Shown here in pieces: positions 948-38,480 of a stretch of 44,913 bases of DNA. Position 1 is the first letter of the stretch. Each line of letters starts with the position of its first letter. This DNA comes from a virus, in IMG/VR virus record IMGVR_UViG_3300010373_000067, positions 1 to 44,913 of that record; one strand, given 5' to 3'. A program made the position numbers and the translations under genes. The notes below the pieces were generated by a model. It searched no databases. It saw only the letters and a program-made list of their open reading frames with translations, and was not told the DNA's origin.

Positions 948-975
948 CTGACGGCATGGTCAGTGCGAGTAGAAT
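948..975 (+). promoter_or_regulatory. operator-promoter A (TGAC-N6-GTCA)
   Basis: The operator 949-962 is TGACGGCATGGTCA, and the symmetry extends to CACTGAC...GTCAGTG (946-965). Its left half overlaps a -35-like CTGACG (948-953). A 16-nt spacer leads to the -10 TAGAAT (970-975), which lies 7 nt before the ATG at 983. The same palindrome precedes the TetR-like gene and three other genes, so this is probably a repressor site. Confidence 0.65.
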
Positions 976-4222: not shown

Positions 4223-4268
4223 CTGGCACGGGTCATGCATGTCTCTAAATACTGACGCATTGGTCAGT
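4223..4268 (+). promoter_or_regulatory. operator B (TGAC-N6-GTCA) with possible promoter
   Basis: TGACGCATTGGTCA at 4253-4266 is extended to ACTGAC...GTCAGT (4251-4268). The half-site geometry is the same as in the other sites. A possible promoter lies just upstream: CTGGCA (4223-4228), a 17-nt spacer, TAAATA (4246-4251). The operator would then cover the transcription start. Unlike sites A, C, D and E, a -10 downstream of the operator is not clear, so the promoter assignment is weaker than the operator. Confidence 0.5.
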
Positions 4269-4293: not shown

Positions 4294-5055
4294 ATGGCAA
4301 CATCACGACATCACAACGGCCACAGCATCACGGCAACGCTTGCGCGCAAGCATTTCGTAGCGACCGAGGCCGAGGTCGAATCGCTGGCGCAAGAGCAGTA
4401 CCGCGGCGCGGACATCGCCGCACAAGGGGCGAGTACCTACCTTCGGGTGCTCGTGGCAGGATGCCAAGCCAAGGTGGGCCGGGCTCGACGGGGCCTCGCG
4501 CTGCGCAAGGACGCACAGTTGGAAGTCATCAACGCAGTGCATGAGCGGTTCTATGCCGCAGTGCTCCGCGGAGTCACCACGCCGGAAATCGAGCACGACC
4601 CGAACGTTGACCCGAAGGAACAGCGGCGCCGCACGTTGGAGCGCAACCGGCGCTCGGCGTTCGCCCGCTCCGCAGTGTCAACGCTGCGCCTGTTCGTCAA
4701 CGGCGGGGGCGACATTCGAGCGCTCAGCGTGGAAGTCGTCACGAAGACGCAGCTACGCAAGGACGTGGCGCCGCCCGAGCCAACGGACAAGGTCGAGCGG
4801 CAGATACAGCGGGCCGAGGGGGCGTTGCTGCGGGCCATCGAGCGACGGGCCAGGGCGAGCCCCGAGGCCGCAGCCGAAGACATCGGGCGCATCATGGAAG
4901 ACTTGCAGAAGACCCTCGACGCCTTGAACGGTGAAGCCGAGACGGCACCGGCCGAGGCACCCCAGGCCCCGCCGCCGAGGCAGGACACGGGCGCACGTAG
5001 GACCCGCGTAGGGGTGCCGCTGCTACACCGGCCCGCCCTCGCGGCCGGCCCGTGA
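4294..5055 (+). CDS. hypothetical early protein, helical
   Basis: A 253-residue, mostly helical, very charged protein. The N-terminal part (residues 15-60) is followed by a region rich in Arg/Glu (PKEQRRRTLERNRRSAF). A long helix covers roughly residues 165-215 and a Pro/Ala-rich tail follows. No family is recognised. The ATG at 4294 has GAGGT 8 nt upstream. It lies 27 nt after operator B and is the largest early gene, so its regulation by the TetR-like protein is likely. The next gene overlaps its stop by GTGA. Confidence 0.6.
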   Translation: MATSRHHNGHSITATLARKHFVATEAEVESLAQEQYRGADIAAQGASTYLRVLVAGCQAKVGRARRGLALRKDAQLEVINAVHERFYAAVLRGVTTPEIEHDPNVDPKEQRRRTLERNRRSAFARSAVSTLRLFVNGGGDIRALSVEVVTKTQLRKDVAPPEPTDKVERQIQRAEGALLRAIERRARASPEAAAEDIGRIMEDLQKTLDALNGEAETAPAEAPQAPPPRQDTGARRTRVGVPLLHRPALAAGP

Positions 5056-6473: not shown

Positions 6474-6637
6474 CCCGCTGCCCCACCCGGCACCGCCGGT
6501 TAGAAGTCAAGACCGAACGCGACCGCTGCTCGTGGGTCGTGTGTCTTGACTGCGGGAAACGCGGGCCTCGCAAGCATTCCTATACCCTGGCCCTTCTGGC
6601 CTGGGCTCTGCATCTCACGAACCAACACCCGCGCTAG
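6461..6637 (+). CDS. small zinc-ribbon-like protein
   Basis: A 58-residue basic protein with C-P-T-R-H near residue 7 and CSWVVCLDCG near residues 23-32, enough cysteines and histidines for one zinc site. The C-terminus is hydrophobic (LALLAWALHL). The ATG lies inside the end of the tiny membrane gene (13-nt overlap). Its TAG shares the CTAG palindrome with the stop of the convergent primase gene, so the two operons end on the same four bases. Confidence 0.45.
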   Translation: MARLARCPTRHRRLEVKTERDRCSWVVCLDCGKRGPRKHSYTLALLAWALHLTNQHPR

Positions 6638-9117
6638 GCTTTCTGCGCTTCTAGGAAGCCGTCGCGCACCTGGGCGGGGCTCAGGTAGCCCGCGGCCCAT
6701 GGATGCCCTTTGCGCAGGAATAGGCGCGGCATGGAGCCATCCGGCATGGGCAGCTCGCAGAGGCCGTCCCGCGGCAACGCCGGGTGCGGCTCGTAGCCTA
6801 GACCCACGACGAGCGCTTGGCGCATGTTCCGCGGTATGAGCTTGTCCTTTCCGAGCTGCGCCAATAGATGGTCAAGCGAGACGGACGACAGCCAACCGTT
6901 GCGGAAGCCTTCGCGCTTCTGCTCGATGGCCGCAAGTATCTCTTGCTCGATGGCGCCCAAGCTCTCGGTGACCGCCTGCTCGGTGCTCGTGGTGATCGGC
7001 GCCACTACGCATGCGCCGGCCGGGTTCAGCTCGTCGGGAACCTCTAGGCCCATGAGATAATCAAACACAACAGCGAAGCCGTCGGCCTCTAGCCACTTGT
7101 TGAATCTGATGAAGAACTCGGTAGTTAGACCGTCTCGGGCAAGGTCAGCTTTGGTCTGCTGCGCGCAGTAGAACGGAGCAAAGCGGCGCTCGTTGGGGTC
7201 TATGCGTACGCCGTTCTTGTGGTTCGAGAGAAGGAACATATTAAAGCATACGTCCTTCATCATCTTTTCGGCGAACATCGGGCGGACTTCCAACCGCCGC
7301 GACGTTATCATCAATTTTAGAATTTCCTGTAGCTCTGTCTGGTCTTGCGTGCGCGTCTCGTCTACGATAACCAACAGCTTGTCAACAAACACACTGTTGA
7401 ACTTCTCGCCAAGCTCGCTCGACTTCGCCCAATGTGTGTATCGTTGGCTAAGGCAATACTCCATGATCCGAGCAAGCGTGGTCTTGCCGTTGCCCTTCAC
7501 GCCCTGAATGAACGGGCACCATGCGAATTTACTGCCCACGTGTCGAGCTGCGGCAGCCATCCAACAGCGAAGTATCAGGTTGTCTCGCTCGTCTGGTATC
7601 AGCGTGCGCAGGAACGACAGGAACATGCCAGGATCGCCGGCTAGGCGGCGAATCTGCGCGGGCTTATAGCAGTTGATTTGCGTAAGCCCATCGCGCACCC
7701 GTATTTCACTCGTGGGCAAGCTCGGGTCGAAGCACTGCGTATGTACCTGGGGGAAGTCGTACACTTCGTTGGATACGAAGGCATCCCACGCGCTCTTGCT
7801 CGGGCGCTGCCCGTCGGGCGTGGTGATATACATACGACCACCGAATGCAACGTCAAACCGGTCCTTGCTGATAGCGAGCCCGTCGGGTAGCTGTATCTTG
7901 TGAATGTCCCGCACGTAGCAGAGGCCGCCGAACATCTGTTTTTGCTGATGCACGGTAACCACGGTGCCTACGGGGGGCCGCTCGCCGGGCTTGAGCTGCA
8001 AGAACTCTACCGTTGGCGGCGGGGGCGGGGGAACTGCCGAGGATTCCTTAGCAGTTGGGGGCAACGGTACCGTGACCGTGAGAGACGAGACGCCGGCCTC
8101 TGAGCGCACGGGCTCGGGGCCAGGGCGCTCCGCATCTACGGCAGCGGCCGGCGTCTCGCGTTCTTGGTACCATTCCTTTTGGTCGCCGCAAGCGCGCAGG
8201 ATGGTCGAGCGCATGTAGTCCATGCGGTCCCACTTCGGCCGCACGAGGCTTGACTGCCGCATCAACCCCAACATGCGCTCGCAATTGTTGCCCGTCCAAA
8301 AGGCCGCATGGTTGGCTAGGGCTTGGTCGGCCGCTGAGCCATCCCACGAACTGTGCGAGTTCTGCGATGGGAAGCTACGCTGTAGGGCCTCGGCGTTGGC
8401 ATACCATAGGTCGGCGAAGCTGGCCCGACCGCCAAACACCGCGGACGCGCTCGACGAACGCAGCGCCCTGGCTATCAGCTCGTTGTCATCGGCCGGGCCG
8501 CGCCATTGGGGCACGGGCTTGTCCGTCCATTCGACGCCGTGCTCTATGTCACCGTGCGGCGGGAAGAACTGTTGAGCGAACGCAGCAAGCTCTCGGGTAC
8601 AATCGGAAAGCGGGGAACCGGTCGCACCAATGCCCCCAATCGCAATGAATCGTAGGCGCGTATACAACTCGGCGCGATAGGTTTTGTTGCGCGTGCCGTG
8701 GCTAGGTGCAGGACCAACATAACTTCCGATGATATGCACGCCGTTGCCCGACACTGATGCTTCGGTATACGCACCGGGAAACCTCGCTATGAAGTTGGAT
8801 ACGTGCGGCTGCCAGCCGGCACCATCGCGGCACGAGTCTAGGTCGATGCAGAACAGACCCGAGCCTTCGGCGATGACGAGCCCCACGCCGTAGCCGGCGC
8901 CCCATTGCTCGGCCCACATGCCGGCCTCGGCGGGCGTCATCCACTGCGCGGGGTCTTGGGCGCTTATGCCAGTCTTCTCGGGCTCGCCGGGCGGCCCTGC
9001 GCCGGTCAGCGGGTGTACAGGTATTTTGTCCGTCTTGCCGTTCTCTCGCGGTACGAGACGGTACAGGATGAACGAGCGCCGCTCCATGAGCGCGTCAAAC
9101 AATGGATTAGGCTTCAC
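6634..9117 (-). CDS. NrS-1-like primase/polymerase fused to DUF5906-type helicase
   Basis: An 827-residue replication protein. The N-terminal third has AEP primase motifs: CIDLDS near residues 90-95 (metal-binding DxD), then SVSGNGVHIIG. Residues about 275-315 (HAAFWTGNNCERM...RPKWDR) match the helical segment of the NrS-1-like primase C-terminal region. A polyproline linker follows near residue 365. The C-terminal half is an SF3-like ATPase with Walker A GVKGNGKTTLA and Walker B LLVIVDE. It should prime and unwind phage DNA. The GTG at 9117 is chosen because it overlaps the stop of the endonuclease VII gene (GTGA); a TTG at 9129 is the alternative. Stop TAG. Confidence 0.85.
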   Translation of the reverse strand: MKPNPLFDALMERRSFILYRLVPRENGKTDKIPVHPLTGAGPPGEPEKTGISAQDPAQWMTPAEAGMWAEQWGAGYGVGLVIAEGSGLFCIDLDSCRDGAGWQPHVSNFIARFPGAYTEASVSGNGVHIIGSYVGPAPSHGTRNKTYRAELYTRLRFIAIGGIGATGSPLSDCTRELAAFAQQFFPPHGDIEHGVEWTDKPVPQWRGPADDNELIARALRSSSASAVFGGRASFADLWYANAEALQRSFPSQNSHSSWDGSAADQALANHAAFWTGNNCERMLGLMRQSSLVRPKWDRMDYMRSTILRACGDQKEWYQERETPAAAVDAERPGPEPVRSEAGVSSLTVTVPLPPTAKESSAVPPPPPPTVEFLQLKPGERPPVGTVVTVHQQKQMFGGLCYVRDIHKIQLPDGLAISKDRFDVAFGGRMYITTPDGQRPSKSAWDAFVSNEVYDFPQVHTQCFDPSLPTSEIRVRDGLTQINCYKPAQIRRLAGDPGMFLSFLRTLIPDERDNLILRCWMAAAARHVGSKFAWCPFIQGVKGNGKTTLARIMEYCLSQRYTHWAKSSELGEKFNSVFVDKLLVIVDETRTQDQTELQEILKLMITSRRLEVRPMFAEKMMKDVCFNMFLLSNHKNGVRIDPNERRFAPFYCAQQTKADLARDGLTTEFFIRFNKWLEADGFAVVFDYLMGLEVPDELNPAGACVVAPITTSTEQAVTESLGAIEQEILAAIEQKREGFRNGWLSSVSLDHLLAQLGKDKLIPRNMRQALVVGLGYEPHPALPRDGLCELPMPDGSMPRLFLRKGHPWAAGYLSPAQVRDGFLEAQKA

Positions 9118-9485
9118 TGCGCCGACCAAATGAGATATGCGATTGCGCGAAGCAACCCGGCGACGGAATCACCAAGTTTGCCTATGCCAGTATTGCAGTT
9201 GGTGCAAAGCCAACCGCGAAATTCCCCTGTTATATGGTCGTGGTCGAGATGCAGGCACTTGCCTTGGCCTACTGGCGGTCCGCCGCAGCATTCACATTTA
9301 TCCGGGCAAGGGCGCGTAGGCTCGGGTAATCCTCTCTGCCTACGTTCCCGCGTGCGGAGATATTCCCGCCTAGAGTCCTTGTGCGTTCGGTGCCAAATGG
9401 CGGCGCGGATGCGAGCTTTTGCCCGCTGCAATTGCGCGCGAACTTCCCGCGCTTGAATCTCGGCAGCGGTTCGTGGTTTAATCAT
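9114..9485 (-). CDS. recombination endonuclease VII-like nuclease
   Basis: A 123-residue protein. A basic helical N-terminus (residues 1-60, many Arg) precedes the endonuclease VII signature: CECCGG, then LHLDHDHITGEFRGWLC and CNTGIGKLGDS. The two CxxC pairs hold a structural zinc, and the DHDH pair forms the beta-beta-alpha-metal nuclease centre. T4 endonuclease VII resolves branched DNA before packaging; the same role or a nicking role in replication is likely. No clear Shine-Dalgarno precedes the ATG. The 3' end overlaps the primase start. Confidence 0.85.
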   Translation of the reverse strand: MIKPRTAAEIQAREVRAQLQRAKARIRAAIWHRTHKDSRREYLRTRERRQRGLPEPTRPCPDKCECCGGPPVGQGKCLHLDHDHITGEFRGWLCTNCNTGIGKLGDSVAGLLRAIAYLIWSAQ

Positions 9486-9503: not shown

Positions 9504-9540
9504 GGGCCGGCTTCGCGTGCGGGCGGAGTCGGCCCTTTTC
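9504..9540 (+). terminator. hairpin with T-run, plus orientation
   Basis: GGGCCG (9504-9509) pairs with CGGCCC (9530-9535), with extra pairing (CT/AG) toward a large loop, and TTTT follows on the plus strand. It sits between the TetR-like gene and the endonuclease gene. In the minus orientation no T-run follows, so it would stop only transcripts entering from the left. This is a modest case. Confidence 0.3.
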
Positions 9541-9836
9541 TATTTAGCCAAGCAACCGGCCGCTCGCAGCCGTAATTCCTCCGGGGCTTTCACCGCCATG
9601 ACGTGGCGTTCCGCGAGCCCTTGCGCGACAATTTCCAATACCTCGTTGTCGATTGCGTACTGCATGACCGCTCGGCGTAGGCCGGTCATCCCGCGGTAGT
9701 GATAGCTCACGGTACCCGTGGCAGTCTTGGCCGCCTGGGCAACATCATCGCGAGAGAAACTGCGGAAGCCCCTTGACTTGGCGAGCTTCACTGCTGCTCG
9801 AAGAATGTCGAGCTTCATTTGGGTATCATCGGTCAT
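9540..9836 (-). CDS. minimal TetR/AcrR-type transcription regulator
   Basis: A 98-residue protein. Residues about 7-55 form a TetR-family DNA-binding domain: helix KLDILRAAVKLAKSRGFRSF, then DDVAQAAKTATGTVSYHYRG as the helix-turn-helix with the typical xYHYxx end, then LRRAVMQYA. The family is normally about 190-210 residues; here the ligand-binding half is almost absent, so it is a core DNA-binding version. The ATG at 9836 is chosen because its own -10 (TAGGAT) lies 8 nt upstream. The promoter carries TGAC-N6-GTCA, found before four other genes, so autoregulation and control of a phage regulon are inferred. Stop TAG. Confidence 0.8.
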   Translation of the reverse strand: MTDDTQMKLDILRAAVKLAKSRGFRSFSRDDVAQAAKTATGTVSYHYRGMTGLRRAVMQYAIDNEVLEIVAQGLAERHVMAVKAPEELRLRAAGCLAK

Positions 9837-9844
9837 GCGTGCGT

Positions 9845-9874
9845 ATCCTAGGCAATTACTGACGCGAACGTCAA
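9845..9874 (-). promoter_or_regulatory. operator-promoter E, before the TetR-like gene
   Basis: On the minus strand TTGACG (9874-9869) is the -35, followed by an 18-nt spacer and TAGGAT (9850-9845). The ATG at 9836 follows after 8 nt. The operator TGACGTTCGCGTCA (9860-9873 on the plus strand as TGACGCGAACGTCA) overlaps the -35 and also contains the TGA stop of the VRR-NUC gene. Repressor binding here would block RNA polymerase, giving negative autoregulation. Confidence 0.65.
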
Positions 9875-10338
9875 ATAGAATCGGGCGTGTTCGTGATGAT
9901 GGCGCGACCGCCTTGGGCATTCACGAGAACAGCCCACGCGCTTTGCGCCATCTCGGCGAGTGAACCCGAAAATTTCCAGTCACCGCGCTTGACTTCTACC
10001 GAGAGAAAGCGCGCGATGCGCTGCCCTACGTGCTCGTGCTGAATGGTGATGGCTTCCCATCCAATCAGGTCGGCCGACTTGAAGTGCTCGTTTAGCTTCT
10101 TCGAGTCGTTGCCGAGCCCGTAGCGCACGAGGCGCCCCGTCTCGTCTTTGAACGCGCCGCTGTTGTTTCGGAACAGGTAGCGGCCCGAGCGTGCCGCCGC
10201 AAGCCTCACCATTGACTGTATGCGGCCCTCGGATTCATCGTCGCGCCCGACGTTGATATGCATTGCCGTGGCGCACAGCTCATCTATGGCGCGGTCGGGA
10301 ATGTTCCAACGCCGCGCCCATTCATCTAGTGCAGACAT
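9871..10338 (-). CDS. VRR-NUC domain nuclease
   Basis: A 155-residue protein. The VRR-NUC pattern is visible: ESEGRIQSMVRLAAARSGRYLFRNNSG (Glu of the first motif, then the Arg/Asn-containing strand), DLIGW (Asp) near residue 97, and FLSVEVKRG with the E-x-K catalytic pair near residue 118. In phages such nucleases cut branched or replication-intermediate DNA. The start at MSALDE (10338) is preferred; MESRQM at 10353 is possible. It overlaps the DUF1643 gene by 13 nt, and its stop lies inside operator E. Confidence 0.8.
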   Translation of the reverse strand: MSALDEWARRWNIPDRAIDELCATAMHINVGRDDESEGRIQSMVRLAAARSGRYLFRNNSGAFKDETGRLVRYGLGNDSKKLNEHFKSADLIGWEAITIQHEHVGQRIARFLSVEVKRGDWKFSGSLAEMAQSAWAVLVNAQGGRAIITNTPDSI

Positions 10339-10850
10339 TTGTCGGGATTCCATAGTGTTGGTTTAAGATCACCGGGCAAATATAGCGGGTGCCCAGGATT
10401 CCCGCTCTTGGTAACTTTGAGCGCGTGCAGCGGCCCAAGCTCGTGCATGACGATGACCGCCCGCCGGGCCAGCTCGGGGTTGGCTTTGTCGCCCCATCCG
10501 CATACAACCATCAACGTGCTAGTCATGATGGTCCGCAACCATTCGTCGTTCTGCACCAAGACTTCTTCGGGCGGCATTTTGGCTAACTTCGGATCGGTGC
10601 TACGGTACGGGTTGGTGTTGACAAATACCATGGAGTCATAGCCCCACGCGGTCGAGAACGCCCAAGCCTTCGCCACCGTGGGGTCGTTGTGTTCGCCGTC
10701 AGCCGTGCTCGGATTGTTGAGTACCCATCCGATGGCGCGCTTGACGTGCGCGAAGCGCGAGCGCCAAAGCCACGTGCGGTAATCCCCCGTAATATAGGCC
10801 CCGGCAAAGGGCGCCTCGGGCCTCAGAACGGTATGTCTTCTTCCAGCCAT
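10326..10850 (-). CDS. DUF1643 family protein
   Basis: A 174-residue protein. The DUF1643 pattern is clear: IGWVLNNPSTADGEHNDPTV near residues 40-60, GYDSMVFVNTNPYRSTDPK, VCGWGDKA, and a C-terminal GNPGHPLYL. The biochemical role is not established. The family is frequent in phages and mobile elements near replication genes. The ATG at 10850 fits a 28-nt overlap with the previous gene; an upstream in-frame ATG at 10922 would overlap much more. Stop TAG. Confidence 0.75.
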   Translation of the reverse strand: MAGRRHTVLRPEAPFAGAYITGDYRTWLWRSRFAHVKRAIGWVLNNPSTADGEHNDPTVAKAWAFSTAWGYDSMVFVNTNPYRSTDPKLAKMPPEEVLVQNDEWLRTIMTSTLMVVCGWGDKANPELARRAVIVMHELGPLHALKVTKSGNPGHPLYLPGDLKPTLWNPDKCLH

Positions 10851-11074
10851 TGTTGCATGTCCGCTGATACTTGTAGCGCGTCGTTGAATTTCTGCCGCTG
10901 CTCTACGGTCATTCTGAGCCAATCGCCCTTAGCGAGCTTGTAGCGATGCGCCCACGTGGCCACGAGTTCGGCGGCCAGCGGGTCGTGGGCTCGCAGGATG
11001 AAGACCGACTCATTATCCGCCGCTTTGTTCCAACATGAGTTGGGGTTGAGTAAATTCTGTACCTTGGTTGACAT
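10823..11074 (-). CDS. small hypothetical protein
   Basis: An 83-residue protein. After a polar N-terminus (STKVQNLLNPNSCWNKAADNE), residues 25-80 look helical with conserved-looking WAHRYKLAKGDW and an acidic C-terminus (MQQWLEEDIPF). The tail resembles acidic tips of ssDNA-binding proteins, but it is short and I claim nothing from it. It overlaps the end of the SF2 helicase gene by 62 nt and the start of DUF1643 by 28 nt, a tight replication operon. Confidence 0.55.
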   Translation of the reverse strand: MSTKVQNLLNPNSCWNKAADNESVFILRAHDPLAAELVATWAHRYKLAKGDWLRMTVEQRQKFNDALQVSADMQQWLEEDIPF

Positions 11075-12761
11075 TGGTAGCCTCGATGATGTTGGCAGCA
11101 CTCAGCATCGAACGTATGCGCCCTTCGAGTGTTGCGGCATCGGCCGCGCCGAGAGTCTGTGCGGTGGCCACGTCCACGCCGAACGTGTACCAAAAGCGCT
11201 TCTGCGCCACGCTGATGTCTTCGCCAATGTGCTTGCGCCAGCCCATCCAAAGCGCCATGGCGGGGCGCAGGGTAGCCTGTCGCTGCTGCCGCTGCACGTG
11301 GTGATGGATGATTGAGCCGGCAGCCGGCGAGCCCTTTTGGAAGTTGGGAGCGCCATCAACGCGGGCAATCTCGTTGCGGATAGCGTCGAGCACTGACGGG
11401 TCAAGCTCGATTAGGTCGCCCTCTACCTGCTCCGGGGTCGAGCGATTGGCCGGCGCGGGCCTGAAGCCGCAGTACGGGCACTGCACCAAGTAGCGCTCGT
11501 AGGGTTGCATACAGCCCGTGCAGGCCCGCAGCGGTATGGCGTCGCTGCTGCGCTTCCCGCGCTCCCGAGCATCGAGCGTATAAGCCTTGGGCACGTCAGG
11601 CAGCCCGTGATAACTCCAATTGCCGACATGGTCGATAACGATGGCCTTGGGCTTGGGGCTCGCCGCGATGATGGCTAGCCGTTCCGCGTCCGTGAACTCA
11701 TGTAGCCTATGGTCGTAGCCCGGCGCCATAACACGCAGTGACCGGCCGAACTGCTGCGCATAGAGTTGAAATGACGCTGTCTTGCGCGCCATGCTGATGA
11801 CTTCAATAGCCGGGACATCGACGCCCTCGCCGAGACAATCCACGCTGACGAGTTGAAGCAGAATACGCGCCCTAAATTGTCGCAGAAGTTGGCCGCGTAC
11901 AGCAATGGGAGTCTTCGCCGTAATGACTTGTGCCGGCACGCCGGCTTGCTCGTACGCTGCCGCAAGTTCCTTCGCCGCTTCGATGTCAACCGCAAACGTA
12001 ACACCTAACTTCCCCGGCGCGTATTTGAGGTAGTGCCGGACAACGTCGCCCACGATGCGATTGCTTTGATGCGTGACCGCACGTAACTGCGGCAAGCTGT
12101 AATCGCCCGTCGAACCGATAGGCACGCTAGAAAAATCAATATCGCTGTCAGGACAGAGCAGACGATAATCAGTAAGGAAGCCGCGCCTAATAAGCTCACG
12201 GCAAGTAGGCCCAACAACAAGCCGGTCAACAAGGCCATCAGCATGACGCCCAAGGCCGCACCCATCAGCACGGATAGCATGCGCAGTGGGAAAAAAACCG
12301 CGCGCATTGGGAAAGAGCGCCATAGCGCGCCCCCATTTGTTTTGTCGTAAGACATGGTGGCCCTCGTCGATGATTGCTAATCTAACAGCGTCTAGCCAAC
12401 GGTCCTTCTTATCGTGATTGGCGAGCGTATCCACGCCCGCAACCCGCACGTCGCTGCGGTAGTCGTAGCACGAGTAACCGTGCGTCTCATGGTGTAGAGC
12501 TATGATTTGCCGCTGCACTGCCTTGGGCGCGATGATGCCGTGCGGCACGCGCTCGCGATTCAGTGCAAGAGACATTTGCGAAACCAACTCTTGGCGGTGC
12601 GCAATGGCGGCGGTTGGTACGGCCATCTCTGTAGTGATGGCGCCTAGTATCACGGTCTTGCCCGAGCCCGTGGGCGACACCGCCATGACGTTATATACGT
12701 TCGGCTCGTTCCACGCTTCGTACGTGCGGCCCTTGATATCAAGCTGAAAGTCGCGAAGCAA
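11013..12761 (-). CDS. SF2 DEAD/DEAH-type helicase
   Basis: A 582-residue protein. It has Walker A SPTGSGKTV (residues about 30-38), the DEGH box in LAIIDEGHHVL, motif V in LGEGVDVPAIEV and motif VI in QFGRSLRV. A Cys4 zinc ribbon (CTGC...CPYCG) follows near residue 430, then a helical tail. It should unwind DNA in replication or recombination. The usual TATP-R motif reads PTAHAIRADG here. The start is TTG, because an in-frame TAG lies six codons upstream with no ATG or GTG between. It faces the gene at 12848 across an 86-nt divergent region. Confidence 0.85.
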   Translation of the reverse strand: MLRDFQLDIKGRTYEAWNEPNVYNVMAVSPTGSGKTVILGAITTEMAVPTAAIAHRQELVSQMSLALNRERVPHGIIAPKAVQRQIIALHHETHGYSCYDYRSDVRVAGVDTLANHDKKDRWLDAVRLAIIDEGHHVLRQNKWGRAMALFPNARGFFPTAHAIRADGCGLGRHADGLVDRLVVGPTCRELIRRGFLTDYRLLCPDSDIDFSSVPIGSTGDYSLPQLRAVTHQSNRIVGDVVRHYLKYAPGKLGVTFAVDIEAAKELAAAYEQAGVPAQVITAKTPIAVRGQLLRQFRARILLQLVSVDCLGEGVDVPAIEVISMARKTASFQLYAQQFGRSLRVMAPGYDHRLHEFTDAERLAIIAASPKPKAIVIDHVGNWSYHGLPDVPKAYTLDARERGKRSSDAIPLRACTGCMQPYERYLVQCPYCGFRPAPANRSTPEQVEGDLIELDPSVLDAIRNEIARVDGAPNFQKGSPAAGSIIHHHVQRQQRQATLRPAMALWMGWRKHIGEDISVAQKRFWYTFGVDVATAQTLGAADAATLEGRIRSMLSAANIIEATNVNQGTEFTQPQLMLEQSGG

Positions 12762-12780: not shown

Positions 12781-12810
12781 TTGACGGCGCGGTCAGTGTG
12801 CCTGTATAGT
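12781..12810 (+). promoter_or_regulatory. operator-promoter C, divergent region
   Basis: TTGACG (12781-12786), an 18-nt spacer and TATAGT (12805-12810) make the best promoter in the window. The operator TGACGGCGCGGTCA covers 12782-12795 and thus the -35. It drives the proline-rich gene, nuclease and SSB genes to the right. The minus-strand helicase starts only 20 nt to the left, so the same site could also affect it. Confidence 0.65.
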
Positions 12811-12847: not shown

Positions 12848-13756
12848 ATGCAGATTATCGTAGACACGAAGTACGATGACCCCGCAACCATGCGCATCGC
12901 TGCTTCACTGCTGCTCACGCTGAGCGGCGATATTACCCCGGCCGAAGCCGAGGCTACCGTAGAACACACGTTGAGTGCGACGAAGCCGGCGGACGACCCG
13001 CCGCCGCCCCCGCCGCCCCCTTCTCCGCCGGCCCCGACGAATACCAGCTCTACGACTGCCGAGGCCGGCGCATCATTGTCCGGTTCATCGAACGTGCTGC
13101 CTTTTCCACCGCCGCCCCCACCGCCCCCGAGTGCGGATACTGCGGCTCCGCAATCATCGGGTGCCGCGACTGCCCATGCGGCGGCTGCGACAACTGTTGC
13201 ATCTGCCGAACCCCGTGAGTATGATTCTGCGGGCCTGCCCTGGGATGCTCGCATCCATCAGAAGAAGAAGGGCCGCAAGCAAGACGGCACATGGAAGTTG
13301 ATAAAGGGCATTGACCCCAACATCGTCACCGCCGTTGTGCGTGAGTTGCAAGCCGCCAAGTTGCCCGCAGCCGTCACGGGAGCGGCGCCGACAGTTCCCG
13401 CGGGAACTGCTGCCGCGCCCGCGGCACCGCCGGTGCCACTTCCCGGCGCCCTGCCTTTGCCCCCGCCGCCACCGCCTGCAACCACCGTTGCTGACGTGCC
13501 TGCATCGAGTCCACCCGCTGCTGTGCCCGTTCCGCCAGTGCCCGCCCCTGGGGGCGTACCTGCAAGCGGCAGCGGCTACAAGGCCCTAGTTGACAAGATC
13601 ATTGCCGCGCGCAATGCCGGGAAGATCACCCCGGAGAAAGTCAACGAGGTTGTACAGGCCGAGGGCGCCCCGAGCCTCATGGCCCTGGCTTCGCTTCCCG
13701 ACCTTATCGACAAGGTCAACACGAGGTTGGATTTGGCCCTTTCAGGGCTCGCGTAA
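12848..13756 (+). CDS. proline-rich recombination-associated hypothetical protein
   Basis: A 302-residue protein. The N-terminal 45 residues (MQIIVDTKYDD...LLLTLSGDITP) are followed by two polyproline tracts (residues about 50-65 and 88-97). A motif YDSAGLPWDARIHQKKKGRK with DGTWKLIKGID comes next (about 130-160). A further Pro/Ala linker leads to a C-terminal helical domain (YKALVDKIIAARNAGKITPE and LPDLIDKVNTRLD). The GLPWDARIH segment is common in phage proteins next to recombination genes; its function is unknown to me. The ATG at 12848 has GGAG 9 nt upstream. A terminator follows. Confidence 0.7.
   Translation: MQIIVDTKYDDPATMRIAASLLLTLSGDITPAEAEATVEHTLSATKPADDPPPPPPPPSPPAPTNTSSTTAEAGASLSGSSNVLPFPPPPPPPPSADTAAPQSSGAATAHAAAATTVASAEPREYDSAGLPWDARIHQKKKGRKQDGTWKLIKGIDPNIVTAVVRELQAAKLPAAVTGAAPTVPAGTAAAPAAPPVPLPGALPLPPPPPPATTVADVPASSPPAAVPVPPVPAPGGVPASGSGYKALVDKIIAARNAGKITPEKVNEVVQAEGAPSLMALASLPDLIDKVNTRLDLALSGLA
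13393..13408. repeat. 16-bp palindrome, copy 1
   Basis: AGTTCCCGCGGGAACT is a perfect palindrome inside the coding sequence, reading V-P-A-G-T. The same 16 bases occur at 26012-26027 and 26805-26820. Confidence 0.7.
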
Positions 13757-18578: not shown

Positions 18579-18606
18579 CTGACGGCGCCGTCAGTCGTGC
18601 TAGACT
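18579..18606 (+). promoter_or_regulatory. operator-promoter D
   Basis: TGACGGCGCCGTCA (18580-18593) is a perfect palindrome, and it extends to ACTGAC...GTCAGT (18578-18595). CTGACG (18579-18584) is the -35; a 16-nt spacer leads to TAGACT (18601-18606), 7 nt before the ATG at 18614. Spacing is identical to operator A. A second TAGAAT lies at 18560-18565. Confidence 0.65.
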
Positions 18607-33769: not shown

Positions 33770-34378
33770 TTACTCTATGTCGATTGCGGCCATGTTGATT
33801 TGGTGGATGCTGCCGCCGTCCGTGTACCAGAACGTCATGGGCGGGGAACCGCGGTTGCCGCGGGTCTGCGGCGAGGCCGGCAGCACTTGCAGGTAGTAGC
33901 CCACGCTCGACAAAATCCCATCGATGGCCACGCCGGCCGCCGTGTTGACTTGCTGCGCCTGGGCCGCGCTGAGCGGCACGCCGGCACGAATGGCACCGAA
34001 ATTCAGGTACTTGTCGATGGGGTCCGACAGTACGCCGCTCAGCTCCGTATAGCCGAGCGTGATATACGGCACCGAGTTGGTGGACGTAAGGAACGTCAGC
34101 AACGAAAGCTGAAAATCCGAGTTCATCAGGATTTGATTGACGTAGGGGTCAATCCACTTCCACGAGCCCGGCATCTGCCCTTGGCGAAGGTACTGAAACT
34201 TCTGATTCGCCGTTGCAACGGCCGCGTAGTAGTTGTATCCGTTCGAGTCGAGATTCCCCGAAGTCGTCGGGTCCGTCACGTCGGGAATGAGCCCCGCCTG
34301 ATTGCGGAACTTGAAGGTGATACGGCCGTTGGTCGCGGTCGTGTTCAGCGACGCAATGGCGCCGCAAACGAAGGCCGC
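33770..34378 (-). CDS. tail sheath protein, part after in-frame TAG
   Basis: A reading frame in exactly the same frame as the upstream sheath part, separated from it only by one TAG. From the codon after the stop it reads AAFVCGAIASLNTTATNGRI, then GNLDSNGYNYYAAVATANQKF, WKWIDPYVNQILMNSDFQLS, LNFGAIRAGVPLSAAQAQ and a final YTDGGSIHQINMAAIDIE: the typical C-terminal half of DUF3383 sheath proteins. No good start with a Shine-Dalgarno sequence was found for it alone; the first candidate, GTG at 34279, would lose conserved residues. Confidence 0.75.
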   Translation of the reverse strand, partial: AAFVCGAIASLNTTATNGRITFKFRNQAGLIPDVTDPTTSGNLDSNGYNYYAAVATANQKFQYLRQGQMPGSWKWIDPYVNQILMNSDFQLSLLTFLTSTNSVPYITLGYTELSGVLSDPIDKYLNFGAIRAGVPLSAAQAQQVNTAAGVAIDGILSSVGYYLQVLPASPQTRGNRGSPPMTFWYTDGGSIHQINMAAIDIE

Positions 34379-37915: not shown

Positions 37916-38473
37916 TTAGAACGATGCGGTTGTAGACGCTATCGCCAGCGAACCGGGCCGAGCATTGCTGCAAACCTTCCACGGGGTCGCAATGGCACCC
38001 GCCAGCGCTCCCGAGATGGCTGACCCGTCCGTCAGCGAAACGTAGACAGTATCGCCGTAATTCGCTCCGCCTGCAAACCGTAGCCAGAAATTGCCGCTGG
38101 CCATGAGAGTGCATACGATGCCCTCTCGAAGCCGCCATGCTCGGTATAGGCGGTCCCACGTCTGCCACGACCATGACGCCACGGGGCCGCCAAAAGCCGG
38201 CGGCCCGCCTATTACGCCGCCGTTGGCGGCATTGACGCTGCGAAGTGGAACCACGACCCCGACCATATCGGCGGCGGTCTGTTGTGCGTTCTGCACGAGC
38301 CCCGTGGACGGGTCACCGAAGCCGAAGCGGCCTTGCAGCACGCCGCCGGGCGCAGCCGTCCACGCGCCCGCGCCCGCGAGCGCCGACACATAGGGGGCTC
38401 GGGTTTCGAGATTCTGTGCGAGAACGCGAGATGCAAAAGCGCCCTCGTACGGACCGAGGGCGCTTTGAGTCAT
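37916..38473 (-). CDS. structural protein next to the capsid gene
   Basis: A 185-residue protein. SALGPYEGAFASRVLAQNLE near the start and long beta segments (GDTVYVSLTDGSAISGALAG) are typical of small virion proteins encoded beside capsid genes. The role (cement, decoration or head fibre) is not clear. The ATG at 38473 has GAGGG 9 nt upstream, part of the first post-capsid hairpin, and a second 12-bp hairpin covers codons 3-13. Expression may be attenuated. Confidence 0.6.
   Translation of the reverse strand: MTQSALGPYEGAFASRVLAQNLETRAPYVSALAGAGAWTAAPGGVLQGRFGFGDPSTGLVQNAQQTAADMVGVVVPLRSVNAANGGVIGGPPAFGGPVASWSWQTWDRLYRAWRLREGIVCTLMASGNFWLRFAGGANYGDTVYVSLTDGSAISGALAGAIATPWKVCSNARPGSLAIASTTASF
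38021..38034. other. TGAC-N6-GTCA word inside a coding sequence
   Basis: TGACCCGTCCGTCA has the operator pattern but is inside the structural gene at 37916-38473 and has neither a promoter nor the extra symmetry. About one such match is expected by chance in this length, so it is probably not a working site. Confidence 0.25.
38436..38466 (-). terminator. 12-bp hairpin with T-run inside codons 3-13
   Basis: AAAGCGCCCTCG (38436-38447) pairs with CGAGGGCGCTTT (38455-38466) around a 7-nt loop. On the minus strand the stem is followed by TTTTGC. It looks like a strong intrinsic terminator but lies in the first codons of a gene directly downstream of the capsid gene. Confidence 0.6.
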
Positions 38474-38480
38474 GGACAAA

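Follow-up and report, generated by a model that had tools for sequence, protein, structure and literature searches.

A minimal TetR-type phage regulator and a promoter-embedded palindrome as a candidate multi-promoter control of early genes

Introduction

The C1 protein of phage P1 is a multi-operator repressor whose sites are dispersed over the genome; it is not of the TetR type, its sites are asymmetric, and its phage is temperate with a known immunity. Lambda Cro is a small repressor that turns down early transcription as well as its own promoter, acting within one switch region. Genome-wide repressor sites have also been described for the stoperator repressors of mycobacteriophages (PMC9283540).

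The presence of tetR-like genes in phages was noted in 2012 for phiPLPE, CP-T1 and 138, and co-option of a bacterial stress-type regulator was proposed (PMC3391216). CP-T1 was reported to be capable of temperate behaviour, yet to be without any of the genes of the three known lysogeny mechanisms, and the main text of that paper contains neither of the words 'promoter' and 'palindrom' (PMC3391216). A search of the open-access literature, in part narrow and with subscription papers outside its scope, returned no operator or regulon for phage TetR genes. Here we describe a TetR-type regulator of 98 residues (mini-TetR) encoded in a 44,913-bp stretch of viral DNA, referred to as the window, and a palindrome that recurs at promoters of the window and of related phages.

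The regulator and its family

The preliminary description of this locus proposed a 98-residue TetR-type protein nearly devoid of a ligand domain, and on both points it stands. The reading frame is present and its product matches the Pfam profile TetR_N (PF00440) over residues 11-57 (E = 3e-9, with a score of 37 bits where the cut-off is 24); it also matches the phrog_8723 profile (9.7e-27), as do the homologues of MSW-3, KsaM-C1, JD001, CP-T1 and Scuro (1e-35 to 1e-40). The AlphaFold model (pLDDT 94, pTM 0.84) is a confident, compact fold composed entirely of helices, the final one spanning residues 86-97, and the TetR ligand domain is missing from it. PDB relatives, which are at least 186 aa long, match the protein in its N-terminal part only. 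As modelled, the protein combines a TetR-type DNA-binding domain with a short C-terminal part that is its own: no PDB entry passed E 0.001 in a Foldseek search, the best of the 50 listed having a TMq of 0.67, while phage proteins reached a TMq of 0.94. A motif in this C-terminal part, A-x-x-A-P-x-x-L-[RK], recurs across much of the mini-TetR family, and we know of no structure of an equally short TetR protein. A longer version of the frame (ATG 9920, 126 aa) was discarded because it would place the operator and promoter within the gene.

Longer homologues, of about 166 aa, occur in Scuro, SppYZU01 and L003 (L016:21427-21924, minus strand; L026:1000-1500, plus strand; L003). Ahead of the TetR_N domain they have some 65 residues that resemble a further helix-turn-helix of this kind in degenerate form, for which there is no Pfam call.

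Homologues of mini-TetR were found in about 96 GenBank phages, most of which infect Klebsiella, and the phages that share the gene are mostly lytic. Carriers include Jedunavirus and other Klebsiella phages, Edwardsiella phages MSW-3 and PEi21, Pectobacterium phage PEAT2, Pantoea phage AAM22, Acinetobacter phages LAPP1 and Scuro, Vibrio phage CP-T1, and more distant phages. The earlier remark that such regulators are rarely described in phages was therefore only partly right, many of these genes being annotated 'TetR family transcriptional regulator'. The gene usually has a nuclease (or methylase) gene on one side and a primase gene on the other, as it does in the window (Table 1), whose relatives have DNA polymerases 48-59% identical to its own. 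A scan of bacterial genomes gave 95 pattern matches, none of them a relative of the window's branch, and no plasmid match was obtained.

Table 1. Coordinates of the regulator gene, its neighbours and the TGAC-N6-GTCA palindromes in the window
Feature	Position	Strand	Remarks
Candidate operator	949..962	+	Inside promoter 948-975 (CTGACG-N16-TAGAAT), before ORF from ATG 983
Candidate operator	4253..4266	+	28 bp upstream of 253-aa ORF 4294-5055; no clear -10 at that spacing
DNA primase gene	6634..9129	-	Conserved neighbour of tetR
tetR-like gene, 98 aa	9540..9836	-	TetR_N helix-turn-helix and short all-helical C-terminal part; ligand domain absent
Predicted tetR promoter, TTGACG-N18-TAGGAT	9845..9874	-	
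Candidate operator in tetR promoter	9860..9873	-	Its TGA doubles as stop codon of the upstream nuclease gene
Nuclease gene (phrog_93)	9871..10353	-	Upstream conserved neighbour of tetR; profile match
Candidate operator	12782..12795	+	Inside promoter 12781-12810 (TTGACG-N18-TATAGT)
Candidate operator	18580..18593	+	Inside promoter CTGACG-N16-TAGACT, before small ORFs 18614/18641-18844
Palindrome	34138..34151		Within structural-region ORF 33770-34279 (-); promoter context absent
Palindrome	38021..38034		Within structural-region ORF 37916-38479 (-); promoter context absent

Palindromes in the window

TGAC-N6-GTCA has seven exact matches in the window against 0.52 expected, a number that none of 100 dinucleotide shuffles reached. 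Five of these, each preceding a gene, had been correctly located in the preliminary description; it recognized only one more, at 38021, and missed the copy at 34138, so that the total is seven rather than six. These two are probably chance occurrences. Its observation that a half-site overlaps the -35 box at four sites was confirmed for 949, 9860, 12782 and 18580: at four of the five promoter sites the first half-site forms part of the -35 box, with the -10 box 16 or 18 bp away. An independent scan for consensus promoters recovered three of these promoters (948, 12781 and, on the minus strand, 9874) among 13 promoter-like matches. The site at 12782 separates divergent operons, one with the helicase gene (11013-12761, minus strand) and one on the replication side (12848-13756, plus strand), and that at 18580 lies in a promoter 23 bp past the DNA polymerase gene.

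At 9836, 983 and 18614 in the window the ATG follows the predicted -10 box by only about 7-8 bp, a distance similar to that seen in the relatives G009 and G013; transcripts from these three starts may therefore be leaderless or nearly so.

Palindromes in related phages

Each site-rich relative carries 5-23 palindromes, where about 0.6 would be expected. The counts are 12 in MSW-3, 14 each in KsaM-C1 and JD001, 5 in Scuro, 9 in CP-T1, 17 in PEAT2, 16 in LAPP1, 13 in AAM22 and 17 in Geezett, with 23, 12 and 11 in the IMG/VR contigs G007, G009 and G006 and 19 and 17 in G014 and G015. Three relatives obtained after the idea had been framed (G011, G012 and G013) have 8, 14 and 10, including in each case one just upstream of tetR. 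The unrelated phages KP34, K11 and lambda have none and KP15 has one; G010, whose homologue looks degenerate, also has none. When 12 genomes were pooled, 153 sites were counted at a spacing of 6, as against 8-27 (about 18) at any one of the other spacings between 0 and 20. At this spacing no anagram of TGAC exceeded 23 and the best other half-site reached 50. The extended form TGACG-N4-CGTCA is present in 76 of the 153.

Among the 54 sites of five annotated phages, 42 precede a CDS start by no more than 130 bp (18% at random), the distance to the start codon being often some 50-60 bp, and 38 fall between genes (9% at random). A -10 box exceeding the 95% null level at sigma-70 spacing accompanies 84 of the 153 pooled sites, compared with about 15 expected. 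Replication genes, tetR and small genes of unknown function make up most of the genes downstream, which often run antiparallel to the structural genes. Nearly every site-rich genome has the palindrome ahead of tetR, an exact site there being absent in CP-T1 and G007; most of the window's relatives keep the sites at the helicase divergence and beside the end of the polymerase gene. The preliminary description would have been refuted had the palindromes not been conserved in relatives that keep the regulator. It survived this test, in that genomes with the same type of recognition helix mostly have 5-23 sites, at promoters and ahead of tetR itself.

Covariation with the recognition helix

When 30 genomes were ranked by number of sites, the types of recognition helix sorted alongside. 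Five or more sites were found in 16 of the 18 genomes whose regulator has the helix x-[GS]-[TSI]-[VI]-[SNL] and in none of the 12 without it (Fisher 1e-6); relatives with an altered helix have 0-4 sites. Because the helix class was defined after inspection and the phages compared are partly related, this covariation supports the idea but does not prove it. CKB-S1 and G008 depart from the pattern; the latter keeps nine shorter GACGA-N2-TCGTC sites. In Scuro an inner base of the palindrome differs (TGACA...TGTCA) and so does the helix (GTVLRYY).

Eight promoter-like sites of the G008 phage (G008:C1 88-3329, 34211, 49912, 51219) are almost identical and contain GACGAACTCGTC, one base off the family operator, within longer conserved sequence.

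Other operators were sought in relatives that lack the palindrome. PD0307 and PhiPLPE keep the regulator, yet a dyad search of their genomes yielded no operator: the top 4-bp dyad of PD0307 was rejected as mostly tandem repeat, and the search for an alternative in PhiPLPE gave nothing convincing. PD0307 contains a 36-bp tandem repeat (GGCCTTGCTGCATAGGC...) in a coding region (L017 28120-28336). In PY6 (PP806536), GTAGCGC-N4-GCGCTAC occurs at 7108, 8015, 12383, 19993 and 28189, inside longer TTGAC...GTCAA arrangements, and is possibly an operator of its own or another intergenic element. G002 has three sites resembling TATTGTCC-N4-GTCAATA.

Proposed mechanism and alternatives

Sequence analysis establishes the protein family, the palindrome excess, the promoter position, the site at tetR and the loss of sites upon helix change. 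The single-repressor interpretation of the preliminary description is supported by these results, from which we infer binding and repression. The reading frame in the window would encode an autoregulated minimal TetR-type repressor that shuts early promoters by means of palindromes over the -35 box and spacer, a reading to which we assign a probability of roughly 0.8. The regulator, probably acting as a dimer, would recognize TTGACG-N4-CGTCAA-like palindromes, which share TGAC-N6-GTCA as their core. In most of its occurrences the palindrome has one half that is the sigma-70 -35 box and another that falls in the spacer; a bound dimer would therefore exclude RNA polymerase. At the onset of infection the host polymerase would fire the operator promoters, and accumulation of the regulator would then close its own promoter together with the early and replication promoters, the predicted outcome being an early shut-off of the kind brought about by Cro, in a phage that has no CI. 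The palindrome appears to act in this way as a multi-promoter control of early genes in about 100 phages.

Binding by the same protein could instead serve mainly activation, or a dual function in timing groups of genes. Activation is known for some TetR-family proteins, and nearly all of the sites are at promoters; however, their placement over the -35 box and spacer is expected to block RNA polymerase, and most operator promoters have near-consensus sigma-70 boxes, so that activation should be unnecessary. This makes a principal role as activator improbable. A dedicated protein could be dispensed with altogether were the palindrome only a promoter signature, an extended -35 element, as the doubling of half of each site as a -35 box might suggest. 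A -35 box alone, however, does not account for the second, inverted half within the spacer or for the strict 6-bp spacing, nor for the absence of the palindrome from tetR promoters of the TTGAC type in relatives whose recognition helices differ (CKB-S1, PD0307); we attach next to no credence to a mere signature.

The operator of RutR is TTGACCA-N2-TGGTCAA. Recognition of a similar 16-bp palindrome by RutR (PMC10891134) raises the question of whether the phages have hijacked the operators of a host TetR-family protein, leaving their own TetR to do something else. Such hijacking was rejected, since the RutR form TGACCA-N2-TGGTCA is found at 0 of 153 sites, as opposed to the 76 with the extended form given above. 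That the palindrome occurs no more than once in unrelated Klebsiella phages and in lambda, that site number tracks the recognition helix of the phage regulator over many host genera, and that the palindrome is present at phage tetR itself likewise make a host operator very improbable.

An immunity repressor of an unrecognized, integrase-free lysogeny or carrier state is a further role that mini-TetR could have, and one that we consider unlikely; the lack of relatives of the window's branch in the bacterial genome scan speaks mildly against it for the window phage. A mini-TetR switch might explain the lysogeny of CP-T1, and that old question becomes directly testable. Should early promoters be repressed in trans by mini-TetR, a bacterium producing it would be expected to resist these phages.

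Comparison with known systems

A transcription programme is hereby proposed for about 100 sequenced phages, mostly of Klebsiella, for which none was found described, and the regulator, its candidate operator and many putatively controlled promoters are named together. Within the family, recognition-helix and operator variants also form a natural series for a minimal TetR lacking the ligand domain. The genes of phiPLPE, CP-T1 and 138, the 'TetR family' genes of Jedunavirus and phrog_8723 belong to the same family as mini-TetR and were annotated earlier. A TetR-type, ligand-domain-free regulator with promoter-embedded palindromes would be a multi-operator phage repressor of a kind that was not found described in the open-access literature searched.

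With TetR/AcrR regulators (PF00440) such as RutR, AcrR, QacR and TetR, the window protein shares the N-terminal TetR_N DNA-binding domain, a palindromic candidate operator of about 16 bp that overlaps the promoter, and a candidate operator at its own gene. Members of that family bind palindromic operators as dimers, and the palindrome described here and its covariation with the recognition helix agree with this. It differs in its length of 98 aa rather than some 190-210, in a C-terminal part unlike PDB structures, and in the many candidate operators per phage genome; taken strictly, it lacks a feature by which the family is defined, the C-terminal ligand and dimerisation domain. Compared with lambda Cro, mini-TetR belongs to another protein family and would act at many dispersed promoters, and no CI counterpart has been identified. 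The mycobacteriophage stoperator repressors have in common with it one phage repressor with many dispersed sites, including early promoters, the 5-23 candidate sites per genome resembling the many dispersed sites of an L5-type system. Those repressors, however, are not of the TetR type, their phages are temperate and have a known immunity, and the asymmetric sites that they recognize stop elongation within transcription units, whereas the candidate operators described here are palindromes embedded, for the most part, in promoters.
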